A stretch of 64,000 nucleotides of DNA, taken from contig CALSRS010000001.1 in assembly GCA_943788815.1 (NCBI GenBank), positions 496,001 through 560,000 of the forward strand. The letters run 5' to 3'. Source of the DNA: an uncultured Gammaproteobacteria bacterium. Its GTDB lineage: Bacteria; Pseudomonadota; Gammaproteobacteria; Eutrophobiales; Eutrophobiaceae. The position numbers and the translations under genes were made by a program. The stretch's first letter is position 1. Each line of letters starts with the position of its first letter. Below, in pieces: positions 2,567 through 52,883 of this stretch. The notes under the pieces were generated by a model. That model was given only the letters and a program-made list of their open reading frames with translations, made no database searches and was not told the DNA's origin.

Positions 2567-3940
2567 TTAATGATCATCTTCTTCAAAAAAAGCATGACCT
2601 CCGGAATAATAATGGCTGAGACCCTCCGGCCTACCATCAGGATATAATTCTTGCATGGGGTTGGTAACCTCGCCATTTGCGGCAATCTTCCAACTCATAA
2701 TAAATGAGTTGTGGGTATCACGTGGCACCTGATTGCAATATTCTCCCATGATGTTGAAACATTCCGGACTGGAATCCACTCCCCATGTACTGGCCACTTC
2801 GTCTGGCGTTGGTTGTACATAGCCTTTTTCATCTGTACAGCGCGACTGGATAATTCGTTCTTGACCATCCCATTCCCAGTCCATACGGAAACGAGTGTGA
2901 CAATAAGGTAATACAGGATTCTGAAGTTTGGCATCTCTCCAGGTTTCGCCTCCGTCGACTGATATCTCAACGCGTTTGACGATGCCTCCCGTCCAGGCCA
3001 GGCCACGAATCTCATAGTAACCAGGTCCTGGTAATTGATGACCCCCAGATGGAAAGGTAATAACCGACCTTGCCGTTGTTTCAAGACGGAAGTAGCGAGA
3101 CTGTTCGGATGCCAATAAATAGCCACGACCATCTGGCATACGGTCTGTCATATTAAAGCCATCTTGTCGTGTCACGTAGGTATCATCGGTAACATACAAT
3201 TGGGTCAACCATTTAACCAACCAACGTCCCGTATAGCCTGGTGCAACAACGCGAACTGGATATCCCTGATCAATTCTTAAGGATTCACCATTTTGTGCAT
3301 AAGCGGCCATGGTTACTCCATCCATGGCCTTTTCCATTGGAAAACTTGAGACATGGTCACTGGGATCAGCTGCCATGGCAATGACCCATTTCGCATCTTT
3401 ATGGACACCGGCTTCTTCAAGCAAGCTCTTGAATGAAACACCACTCCACTCACTTGTCGATGTCCTGCCATGGGTTTGTTGTACCGTCTGTGCTCCTTTT
3501 CTAAAGGCATCGCTGCCGTTGGAACCACAAGTTAATACATTAATAGAGGAAACTGAGGGCATGCGCTTTAAATCAGCCAGTGTAAATTCCAGCGGCTTGT
3601 CCACCATGCCAGTAATCTGCAAGCGATAATCTTCCGGGTTAATATCCAGCAAGACGCCATTTTCATGGTCTACCACAAAGTGCAATTCTGACGGTGTAAT
3701 AATTCCATTCAGATCCTGTAAAGGCGTCAGGGCTGTTGCATTGGGATTATTGCTTTGCCGAAAGCGTATGCGCTCAGATTTTTCAAATTTTGATAAGAGT
3801 CCTCGGGCGCGAGTTTCTGTAACGTTGATAACATCTGGATGCAGCGCCTGACCATAGGAAGGGCGCGCAAGACCTGCCGTCAACCCAAGGGCCGCGCCTG
3901 TTTTCAGAAAACGTCTGCGACTGCCAGATTTCACTTTCAT
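2567..3940 (-). CDS. soxC: SoxC-family molybdopterin sulfane/sulfite dehydrogenase (copy 1)
   Basis: First gene of the operon. I start it at 3940 (457 residues): this Met directly precedes the twin-arginine motif RRRFLKTG (residues 8-15) and follows a G6 ribosome site. The longer reading frame to 4000 would run back through the promoter. The Mo-binding domain carries VLTCGSNGS with Cys138 in the Mo-ligand position, the same residue number as in copy 2, and QTVQQTHGRTS, which is very like classical SoxC. The dimerisation domain (GLAWTGGIVKRVEIS) follows. Copy 1 has about 40 extra C-terminal residues ending in a His/Glu/Asp-rich stretch (GGHAFFEEDDH). The two copies are diverged paralogues, not a recent duplication. 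Exact substrate is unresolved. Confidence 0.86.
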   Translation of the reverse strand: MKVKSGSRRRFLKTGAALGLTAGLARPSYGQALHPDVINVTETRARGLLSKFEKSERIRFRQSNNPNATALTPLQDLNGIITPSELHFVVDHENGVLLDINPEDYRLQITGMVDKPLEFTLADLKRMPSVSSINVLTCGSNGSDAFRKGAQTVQQTHGRTSTSEWSGVSFKSLLEEAGVHKDAKWVIAMAADPSDHVSSFPMEKAMDGVTMAAYAQNGESLRIDQGYPVRVVAPGYTGRWLVKWLTQLYVTDDTYVTRQDGFNMTDRMPDGRGYLLASEQSRYFRLETTARSVITFPSGGHQLPGPGYYEIRGLAWTGGIVKRVEISVDGGETWRDAKLQNPVLPYCHTRFRMDWEWDGQERIIQSRCTDEKGYVQPTPDEVASTWGVDSSPECFNIMGEYCNQVPRDTHNSFIMSWKIAANGEVTNPMQELYPDGRPEGLSHYYSGGHAFFEEDDH

Positions 3941-50621: not shown

Positions 50622-52457
50622 ATGGAATCACATATTCTGATAACTCTGGCAGGTATCGGAATACTGGGGGTCATCTGCCAGCTGGTTGCAAATTGGGTAA
50701 AACTCCCCGCCATATTATTTCTGCTACTAGCAGGCATCATTGCCGGCCCCTTCACCCAGCAATTAGATCCGGATATCTTATTTGGCGAGCTATTATTCCC
50801 ACTCGTTGCGCTTGCGATTGCAGTCATATTATTTGAAGGTGCCTTAACACTAAAACTGCAAGAAATTAAAAACCTGCGCTCCATGGTCAGAAACCTGATT
50901 ACTACCGGAGCACTCATAACACTTATTATTACTGCAGCTGCAACCTATTATATTGCTCGAGTTGACTGGCATATTGCACTTTTATTTGGTGCTGTTGTAA
51001 CGGTTACCGGTCCAACTGTAATCATTCCCATGCTAAGAACGGTAAAACCCAATGCCAACATTAGTAATGTTCTACGTTGGGAAGGAATAGTGATCGACCC
51101 CCTGGGTGCCTTATTTGCAGTGATTGTATTTAATTTCATTATTGCATCTGAAACCACAGATGCTTATACAACGGCATTCACTACGTTTGGCTCAATATTA
51201 CTATTCGGCACGCTGTTAGGCTTTGCATTTGCCCTAATATTGGGCAAGACCCTAAGAAAACACATGGTGCCTGAATACCTTCGTAATGTATTAACACTGA
51301 CACTGGTAATGGGCGTCTATGCAATATCAGATTATTTCCAGCACGAATCTGGCCTGCTAGCCGTGACAGTCATGGGTATTGTTTTAGCAAATATGAACAA
51401 TACAGACATAGAAGACATTCTGGAATTCAAGGAATCTCTGAGTGTACTGTTACGTTCCGGATTATTTATTATCCTGGCCGCGAGGGTGGACTTTAACGAT
51501 TTTTTGACTCTGGGATGGCAAGCCTTACTGGTATTGGCAATAATGATGTTTATAGCCAGACCATTGGGGGTATTTGTTTCAGGCATAGGCTCAGACCTTT
51601 CAATCCGGGAAAAACTGATGATCGCCTGGATAGGGCCACGTGGCATAGTTGCGGCCGCAGTTGCGTCAATTTTTGCAATTCGATTACACGAAGCGGGGGT
51701 GCCTGGCGCAGAGTTACTGGTTCCTCTTACCTTTATGGTCATCATCGGGACCGTGGTATTTCAAAGTGCGACATCACGCACTGTCGCATCATTACTCGGC
51801 GTTCGCGAACCTGATACTAATGGTGCGCTGATAATTGGATGCGGTAATGTAGCAAGAAATATTGGCAAAGCATTACATGACCAGAAAATTAAAGTTACCC
51901 TGGTAGATACACGGTGGGACCACATAAGGCTGGCCAGAATGGAAGGCCTCTCGACATTCTATGGCAATCCAGTTTCAGAACATGCTGAACTTCATCTGGA
52001 TCTGACTGGCATTGGGCTCATGCTTGGGATGTCTGGCAGAATCAATGCCGACACCCTGGCCAGTATTAAATATACCCCGGAATTTGGTGCAAATAATGTC
52101 TATGAATTACTGAGTACCAGTGAATCCACCCTACCGGACATACATAAAACATCGATCCGAAATCGTGGCAGACAGTTGTTTGGCGCCAAGATTACCTACG
52201 GGGCCATCGCCAACTGGTTGCGCAATGGCGCGGAAATCAAGTCAACCAAGCTAAAAGAAGAATTTAGTTTCTCAGATTACCTCGAAAAACACGCTAAAAG
52301 GGTCATACCATTGTTTACTATCGATCCAAAATCAAAATTACATTGTTTTACCGATACCGATACCCCTGCACCTGAATCAGACTGGATAATCATATCTTTG
52401 CTGCTACCTGAAGGTATGGAATACCAGGAAATACCCGAAGAAAACGCCCCACCCTAA
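50622..52457 (+). CDS. CPA1-type Na+(K+)/H+ antiporter with C-terminal TrkA-N/RCK domain
   Basis: 611 residues. The first 395 or so form about 12 membrane helices: ILGVICQLVANWVKLPAILFLLLAGIIAGP at the start, FEGALTLKL, VTVTGPTVIIPMLRTVKP and LRWEGIVIDPLGALFAVIVF with the charged residues of ion binding, and IAWIGPRGIVAAAVAS. A nucleotide-binding RCK domain follows (ALIIGCGNVARNIGKAL and VTLVDTRWDHI, about 400-520), then a regulatory tail. It exchanges protons for cations at the inner membrane. A single gene 36 bases after fabB. NhaP, KefC or CvrA relatives share this layout; ion preference is not determined. Confidence 0.9.
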   Translation: MESHILITLAGIGILGVICQLVANWVKLPAILFLLLAGIIAGPFTQQLDPDILFGELLFPLVALAIAVILFEGALTLKLQEIKNLRSMVRNLITTGALITLIITAAATYYIARVDWHIALLFGAVVTVTGPTVIIPMLRTVKPNANISNVLRWEGIVIDPLGALFAVIVFNFIIASETTDAYTTAFTTFGSILLFGTLLGFAFALILGKTLRKHMVPEYLRNVLTLTLVMGVYAISDYFQHESGLLAVTVMGIVLANMNNTDIEDILEFKESLSVLLRSGLFIILAARVDFNDFLTLGWQALLVLAIMMFIARPLGVFVSGIGSDLSIREKLMIAWIGPRGIVAAAVASIFAIRLHEAGVPGAELLVPLTFMVIIGTVVFQSATSRTVASLLGVREPDTNGALIIGCGNVARNIGKALHDQKIKVTLVDTRWDHIRLARMEGLSTFYGNPVSEHAELHLDLTGIGLMLGMSGRINADTLASIKYTPEFGANNVYELLSTSESTLPDIHKTSIRNRGRQLFGAKITYGAIANWLRNGAEIKSTKLKEEFSFSDYLEKHAKRVIPLFTIDPKSKLHCFTDTDTPAPESDWIIISLLLPEGMEYQEIPEENAPP

Positions 52458-52461
52458 AACT

Positions 52462-52477
52462 TGTGACGCAATTCACA
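52462..52477. promoter_or_regulatory. Perfect CRP-type operator, distal
   Basis: TGTGACGCAATTCACA, an exact TGTGA-N6-TCACA palindrome, starts four bases after the antiporter stop. Its centre (52469.5) is 48 bases upstream of the centre of the second site. It is not the FNR pattern (TTGAT-N4-ATCAA). Likely bound by a CRP/Vfr-family activator. Confidence 0.7.
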
Positions 52478-52509: not shown

Positions 52510-52525
52510 TGTGATAAAAATCACA
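52510..52525. promoter_or_regulatory. Perfect CRP-type operator, proximal
   Basis: TGTGATAAAAATCACA, again an exact TGTGA-N6-TCACA. Centre at 52517.5. With a start at 52559 predicted from the -10 box this is position -41.5, the classical class II activator position, and no good -35 is present, as expected for an activated promoter. Confidence 0.75.
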
Positions 52526-52546: not shown

Positions 52547-52552
52547 TAGAAT
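52547..52552 (+). promoter_or_regulatory. -10 box of the CRP-type promoter
   Basis: TAGAAT (5 of 6 to TATAAT), with predicted start seven bases downstream at 52559. That start falls two bases before the first hairpin of the candidate small RNA. Confidence 0.5.
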
Positions 52553-52558
52553 TCAAGC

Positions 52559-52638
52559 ATAGACTATCAACTCCCTATGGTAGTTCTAATGGCCCGGACA
52601 GCTCCCATCCTCCTCCCGTCCGGGCCATTTTTATTTTG
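52559..52638 (+). ncRNA. Candidate small RNA 1: two hairpins with C-rich loops
   Basis: About 80 bases. Hairpin 1: ACTATC (52563-52568) pairs with GGTAGT (52579-52584), loop AACTCCCTAT. Hairpin 2: a perfect 11-base stem ATGGCCCGGAC (52589-52599) and GTCCGGGCCAT (52618-52628) with the 18-base loop AGCTCCCATCCTCCTCCC, followed by TTTTATTTT, a good rho-independent terminator. Both loops carry CTCCC or CCTCC, complementary to Shine-Dalgarno sequences. The layout resembles the alphaproteobacterial cuckoo-type RNAs that have two anti-SD hairpins; relation by descent is not claimed. No open reading frame of note. The minimal alternative is a plain terminator of the antiporter gene, but the CRP-type promoter geometry argues for an own transcript. 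Confidence 0.62.
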
Positions 52639-52781
52639 GATAAATTCATGTAATAAAAATGGAACAAACGTTTCTACGGCCTGTCATATGAGTGTGTAAT
52701 TATTCTGTGAAATGTACCGAATAAATAGGTAAGTAAATCGAGTAAATATTTGCTTACATTTACACAAAGTTACCAATTCGA

Positions 52782-52858
52782 CATTATCCCCCCCGATAAT
52801 GAACGAAGATAAGCCCGGACTCGCCTCCCCCCCCTATATAGAGTCCGGGCTTGGTATT
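52782..52858 (+). ncRNA. Candidate small RNA 2: two hairpins with C6 and C8 loops
   Basis: Hairpin 1: CATTATC (52782-52788) and GATAATG (52795-52801) close a loop of six C. Hairpin 2: a perfect 12-base stem AAGCCCGGACTC (52811-52822) and GAGTCCGGGCTT (52841-52852) with loop GCCTCCCCCCCCTATATA, then GGTATTTT. The second stem shares GCCCGGAC/GTCCGGGC with small RNA 1, so the two look like paralogues. The U tract is interrupted and the promoter is not clear. Upstream there are GTAAAT direct and inverted repeats (52733-52763) that might be an operator. It could also act as a terminator between the convergent neighbours. Confidence 0.5.
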
Positions 52859-52883
52859 TTGGGCAACTCCAAATTAATTCTTG

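Follow-up and report, generated by a model that had tools for sequence, protein, structure and literature searches.

The window, a 64-kb stretch of DNA (64,000 nucleotides) from an uncultured gammaproteobacterium, carries in order ispG, fabA, fabB, an antiporter gene, a predicted small RNA (sRNA) gene and a DUF3750 gene. The antiporter gene (50622-52457, + strand) and the DUF3750 gene (53651-52884, - strand) converge on the space between them, as an earlier note on this DNA had described. The DUF3750 gene, which is thus convergent with the sRNA as well, apparently lies downstream of the sRNA in locus L006 too. The sRNA gene (copy 1; 52559-52638, + strand) is defined by its fold and by its score with a covariance model, R2, built without this copy, and its predicted transcript is about 75-80 nt long. 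Hairpin 1 (52560-52588, + strand) exposes the loop ACTCCCTA, and homologous loops contain CCTCC in 24 of 31 sequences. Hairpin 2, the putative terminator stem (52589-52628, + strand), joins the arms 52589-52599 and 52618-52628 in an 11-bp perfect stem around the 18-nt loop AGCTCCCATCCTCCTCCC; it is supported by the fold, by covariation of its pairs and by CCTCC in 30 of the 31 homologous loops. The T-rich tail of the predicted intrinsic terminator, TTTTATTTT, follows at 52629-52638 on the same strand.

The fold of positions 52559-52638 has a minimum free energy of -29.1 kcal/mol (z = -4.7), a value that none of 200 shuffles equalled, in agreement with the two C-rich-loop hairpins, the second a perfect 11-bp stem followed by a T tract, that had been noticed beforehand by inspection. 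Hairpins that combine a CCTCC loop with 10 or more pairs and have a T-rich tail occurred twice in the 64-kb window as against 0.2 expected from Markov sequences, and the second of the two belongs to a further copy of the sRNA at about 52778-52860. Both window copies are divergent members of the family described below. In copy 1, for example, the loop of hairpin 1 is UCCC and not CCUCC, and that of hairpin 2 contains CCUCCUCCC.

Upstream of copy 1 lie two perfect-consensus CRP palindromes on the + strand. The proximal one, TGTGATAAAAATCACA (52510-52525), is centred 41.5 bp upstream of position 52559, at the class II position; the distal one, TGTGACGCAATTCACA (52462-52477), lies 48 bp upstream of it and is centred at about -89.5. 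These are the only perfect TGTGA-N6-TCACA palindromes in the 64 kb, where 0.06 would be expected. A -10 hexamer, TAGAAT (52547-52552, + strand), is located 21 nt past the proximal CRP site. A CRP centre at -41.5 combined with a -10 box is the textbook layout of a class II CRP promoter, and the CRP-type promoter that the earlier note had postulated is borne out as a prediction. Among the proteins of the same genome is a CRP equivalog (NF008732; 317 bits, cut-off 266), the best solved relatives of which are Vfr and CRP; class III nucleotide cyclases and Hfq are encoded as well.

The second, diverged copy (about 52778-52860, + strand), which is absent from the earlier note, has a fold with z = -6.4 and scores 35.4 bits with R2 (E 5.5e-6, from the shortened calibration used for all covariance searches here). 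Its first hairpin (52782-52801) has the loop CCCCCC, and in its second (52812-52851) a stem of 11 bp closes a C-rich loop of 18 nt, GCCTCCCCCCCCTATATA. This copy lacks a clear CRP promoter, the best upstream CRP-like matches being 5/10 near and 7/10 far, and its T tract is weak. We therefore take it to be a diverged duplicate of uncertain expression. Tandem sRNA copies are also found downstream of the antiporter gene in another genus (L009:3430-3517 and 3657-3744), where both have correctly spaced CRP boxes.

Apart from one genome in which other sequence gave a short match, a DNA similarity search in relatives found nothing, and we therefore relied on synteny and covariance models. The antiporter orthologue (54-63% identical) was used to collect 20-odd loci. 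In 18 other genomes the region downstream of it contains a CRP box, a -10 box, a hairpin with a CCTCC loop, a long hairpin with the loop CCCTCCTCCCCC or similar, and a T tract. A first model, R1, built from ten antiporter-linked loci with the window excluded, gave weak matches to the two window copies (E 0.041 and 0.015, 204 kb searched) and found members in 25 of 53 genomes, eight of which have no adjoining antiporter orthologue. R2, built from ten family members, again with the window excluded, found copy 1 in the whole 3.2-Mb genome at 39.3 bits (E 4.5e-7). A third model, R3, comprising 31 sequences and including the window, matched 32 of 53 genomes of the same order, in 16 of 18 genera, a count in which some genomes, such as G060, may hold only a look-alike RNA (group B, below). 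The sRNA itself is kept in about 30 of these 53 genomes. No R3 match was found in six reduced genomes of genus g17 (1.0-1.5 Mb), and no convincing copy in the genus-level relatives G002 and G004. Among 369 genomes sampled across the class, five clear CRP-linked members were recovered from four other families (L094, L095, L097, L099 and L105).

The alignments show covariation in the stems and conservation of the loops. In a 31-sequence alignment (A10), the bases pair in 88.5% of cells and double changes are seen at 23 of 24 pairs; the 127 double-change cells compare with 33.5 in shuffles and collapse in slid controls, all figures that are inflated because A10 was fitted to the structure. An alignment made from sequence only (A7) still contains 16 double-change cells as against 6.5, a count reached in 0 of 500 shuffles; they are confined to hairpin 2, hairpin 1 being too conserved for any. 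RNAalifold applied to a MAFFT alignment (A2) recovered just 6 pairs because the stems are misaligned there, and hand-set structures on better-aligned subsets took the place of that result. Throughout, CCTCC persists in the loops, at the frequencies given above, while the stems change. The earlier note had proposed looking for the loops in relatives, and in many of them they are indeed kept, along with stems that carry compensatory changes and a class II CRP promoter, at the same genomic position.

The promoter provides a further line of evidence. The covariance models begin at the transcript and hold no promoter sequence, and a CRP box in 37 of 38 copies is therefore independent of them. Specifically, a CRP-like near site that agrees with the consensus at 8 or more of its 10 bases lies upstream of 37 of the 38 copies examined; a TANNNT hexamer starts exactly 21 nt past it in 31, and one base off in 4 more. 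In L064 and L069 the CRP site is displaced upstream by 18 bp, which brings it close to a class I position. A second upstream CRP site matching at least 9 of 10 bases is present in 24 of the 38 copies, mostly about 40 or 50 bp further upstream.

Family members often adjoin fabA-fabB, with or without the antiporter gene. Where the antiporter is missing, in most cases fabB directly precedes the sRNA (L059, L060, L061, L063, L064, L069, L077 and L079), and in L079, from the same genus, a DUF3750-like gene comes after the sRNA as it does in the window. In other families the order is antiporter-sRNA-lexA at L097, and ispG lies on one side of the sRNA at L105. This shared location across genomes is positional orthology. 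Moreover, the upstream neighbour varies when the RNA and its promoter are constant, a pattern that favours a gene in its own right over the terminator of an operon. In L023-L026 (genus g17, 1.0-1.5 Mb) the antiporter gene is kept, the sRNA is absent, and a LexA-like gene, of the same kind as that after the sRNA in L097, follows directly. Identical-looking copies of the sRNA region occur on different contigs of genome G073 (L062 and L073), with a transposase-like reading frame upstream in L062, and were possibly carried or duplicated by a mobile element.

When applied at the scale of the phylum, R3 additionally picks up ErsA, a 6S RNA and a mixture of C-rich terminators in other classes, so that the model alone is unspecific and the model together with the promoter is specific. 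The class II CRP layout was absent from the inspected R3 matches outside the class, and no homologue with this layout was found outside Gammaproteobacteria in the sample. Matches of R2 or R3 that lack a CRP box (group B, 6S, ErsA and terminators of other classes) were set aside as look-alikes. Two loci in other classes, L156 and L179, are different C-rich terminator RNAs; each is preceded by a nearly perfect CRP palindrome, about 52-54 nt before the point where the model begins.

Taken together, these data make it probable that positions 52559-52638 constitute a free-standing gene for a small RNA from an uncatalogued family, activated by CRP and acting in trans by an anti-Shine-Dalgarno mechanism in the manner of CyaR. 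The predicted gene, its structure, its promoter and its conservation are each supported by comparison among genomes. With conserved, single-stranded C-rich loops, covarying stems and a promoter and terminator of its own, all as predicted, the RNA has the attributes of the functional class of C-rich-loop trans-acting sRNAs. Its transcription, activation by CRP and repression of targets we infer as follows. cAMP-CRP bound at -41.5 (class II), aided by the second upstream site, would activate sigma-70 transcription from about 52559, and the RNA of roughly 75-80 nt would terminate at the intrinsic terminator of hairpin 2. The two stable hairpins would keep the CU-rich loops (UCCC and CCUCCUCCC) single-stranded, leaving them free to pair in trans with G-rich sequences at or near the Shine-Dalgarno site of selected mRNAs and to block translation, and Hfq would probably bind the U tail. 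A set of mRNAs would then be repressed in the cell whenever cAMP is high, which is what CyaR achieves in enteric bacteria. The proposed action of the loops at start regions draws on the structure and on the precedents of sX13, SmelA075/099 and CyaR. Thus, sX13 requires its C-rich loops and G-rich motifs in its targets (PMC3771888), SmelA075/099 carry anti-Shine-Dalgarno motifs (PMC3927594), and the latter source names CyaR as a carrier of such a motif and cites functional analyses of CyaR and others. In a duplex test on the 55 predicted start regions of the window, the pairing of loop 2 was not stronger than its pairing with random 100-nt windows, nor stronger than that of shuffled loops, and any effect of the sRNA must therefore be selective.

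In view of its place after the antiporter gene or fabB and of the strong intrinsic terminator at its end, the sRNA might be nothing other than the terminator of that operon with a decorative hairpin, or a 3'UTR fragment, and have no separate function. We regard this as quite unlikely, given that a dedicated class II CRP promoter stands between gene and hairpins in nearly all copies (site in 37 of 38), that the loops are conserved besides the stems, and that the RNA stays constant when the upstream gene changes from the antiporter to fabB or to others, as in L094 and L095. Read as their reverse complements, the loops show GGA motifs, as would suit a CsrA/Rsm-type sponge with GGAGG or GGA loops transcribed from the opposite strand; however, the T tract, the -10 box and the CRP spacing are conserved for the + strand reading only, and the opposite strand lacks a T tract after the stem, so that such a sponge is scarcely credible. 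It is hardly more plausible that the RNA is the leader or messenger of a short peptide begun at an ATG within hairpin 1 ('GATGCTTGTGA'). The 3' arm of hairpin 1 does contain an ATG in many copies, but some copies have none, the frames range from 2 to 62 codons, many of them cross the terminator, and no peptide or reading frame is conserved across the sRNA copies.

Our preferred reading of a free-standing, CRP-controlled sRNA can also be set against known RNA families. The earlier note had thought such an RNA undescribed in this kind of bacterium, and scans with Rfam 15 agree: no family reached its threshold in the window stretch or in its relatives. A literature search on C-rich-loop sRNAs in Gammaproteobacteria returned only unrelated Streptomyces work. 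The likeness to alphaproteobacterial cuckoo RNAs that had also been suggested holds for the loops and fails for family membership. The cuckoo/CcsR, ar14 and SmelA075/SmelA099 RNAs of Alphaproteobacteria have two or more hairpins with anti-Shine-Dalgarno CCUCCUCCC loops and variable stems (PMC3927594), and the loops of the sRNA are alike. The cuckoo-type RNAs are described as stress-induced, with several copies per genome, and not as CRP-driven (PMC3927594). In the window, ar14 (RF02344) gave 19.5 bits and CcsR1 (RF02791) 15.1; locus L061 gave 11.4 and 17.6, respectively. The shared loop idea and these sub-threshold scores would fit membership of the cuckoo/CcsR/ar14 families, which is nevertheless very improbable, as the scores fall far below the cut-offs of 58.8 and 65.3, and as the R3 matches outside the class, a 6S RNA included, are look-alikes without a CRP box in class II layout and yield no CRP-driven copy.

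Similar distinctions apply to other C-rich-loop sRNAs. The gammaproteobacterial sX13 of Xanthomonas represses mRNAs with G-rich motifs near the start (PMC3771888). It has three hairpins with 4C or 5C loops, in contrast to the two hairpins of the new RNA, and Rfam scans of the sRNA loci returned no sX13 family match. ErsA / Pseudomon-1 (RF01719) has a terminator hairpin with a C-rich loop, as the sRNA does; its model scored 17.5 bits on the window (cut-off 50), and R3 matches ErsA in two genomes, in neither of which is a CRP box in place. A third C-rich-loop sRNA, anti-hemB (RF02837), is of interest for the look-alike group B that occurs in the same genomes just under its cut-off. In the window's own genome a member lies at a separate locus (L089, G000:C1:1645874-1645951) without a class II CRP box, and others, at L083, L102, L103, L104, L106, L107, L108, L113, L117 and L119, show the group to be widespread in Gammaproteobacteria. 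Their hairpins resemble CCCGGCTTCCCCAAGCCGGG and GCCCCGGT..CCTCCTCCC..ACCGGGGC, usually with another C-rich hairpin upstream. One member reached 44.9 bits on the anti-hemB model, close to the cut-off of 49.5, and the group may therefore be a gammaproteobacterial extension of anti-hemB.

The closest functional match to the new sRNA appears to be CyaR (RyeE, RF00112) of E. coli, Salmonella and Yersinia, an RNA of about 87 nt that is activated by CRP (PMC11795201); the new RNA is similar in size and predicted to be CRP-driven. Accumulation of CyaR depends on CRP and Hfq, and CyaR represses ompX-type targets; genes for both proteins occur in the window's genome. The E. coli cyaR promoter has a TCACA half-site centred at about -42.5, and the sRNA site is centred at -41.5, both in the class II position. 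Similarly, cyaR has a CCUCC seed (CCACCUCCUU) and a conserved C-rich terminator loop, UCUCCC, and relatives of the sRNA have CCUCC in both loops. The new RNA differs from CyaR in its larger hairpin 1, its longer terminator loop (about 15-25 nt) and its often two CRP sites. Promoter class, size, seed and C-rich terminator loop might suggest a true CyaR orthologue, yet RF00112 (gathering cut-off 47 bits) found nothing above its cut-off in any of 53 genomes and gave no sub-threshold match on the sRNA, R2 scored an unconvincing 7.6 bits on E. coli cyaR at its best place in the 887-bp locus, and the neighbours of cyaR are yegQ and yegR instead of fabAB. With the same functional layout and no membership of RF00112, the sRNA would work like CyaR without being a CyaR member. 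It extends the CyaR principle, in which a global carbon/cAMP signal acts through an anti-Shine-Dalgarno sRNA, beyond enteric bacteria, as a predicted CRP-controlled riboregulator for a whole order of mostly uncultured Gammaproteobacteria and for members of four further families. It appears in none of the catalogues searched, and its promoter and structure are defined well enough for direct testing. It also prompts the question whether C-rich-loop sRNAs share an ancestor or were invented repeatedly. Descent of the sRNA and CyaR from one CRP-activated anti-Shine-Dalgarno sRNA that predates enteric bacteria and is here anchored at fabA-fabB seems unlikely; if true, much of Gammaproteobacteria would have the same two-loop RNA as the link between cAMP-CRP and the repression of translation.
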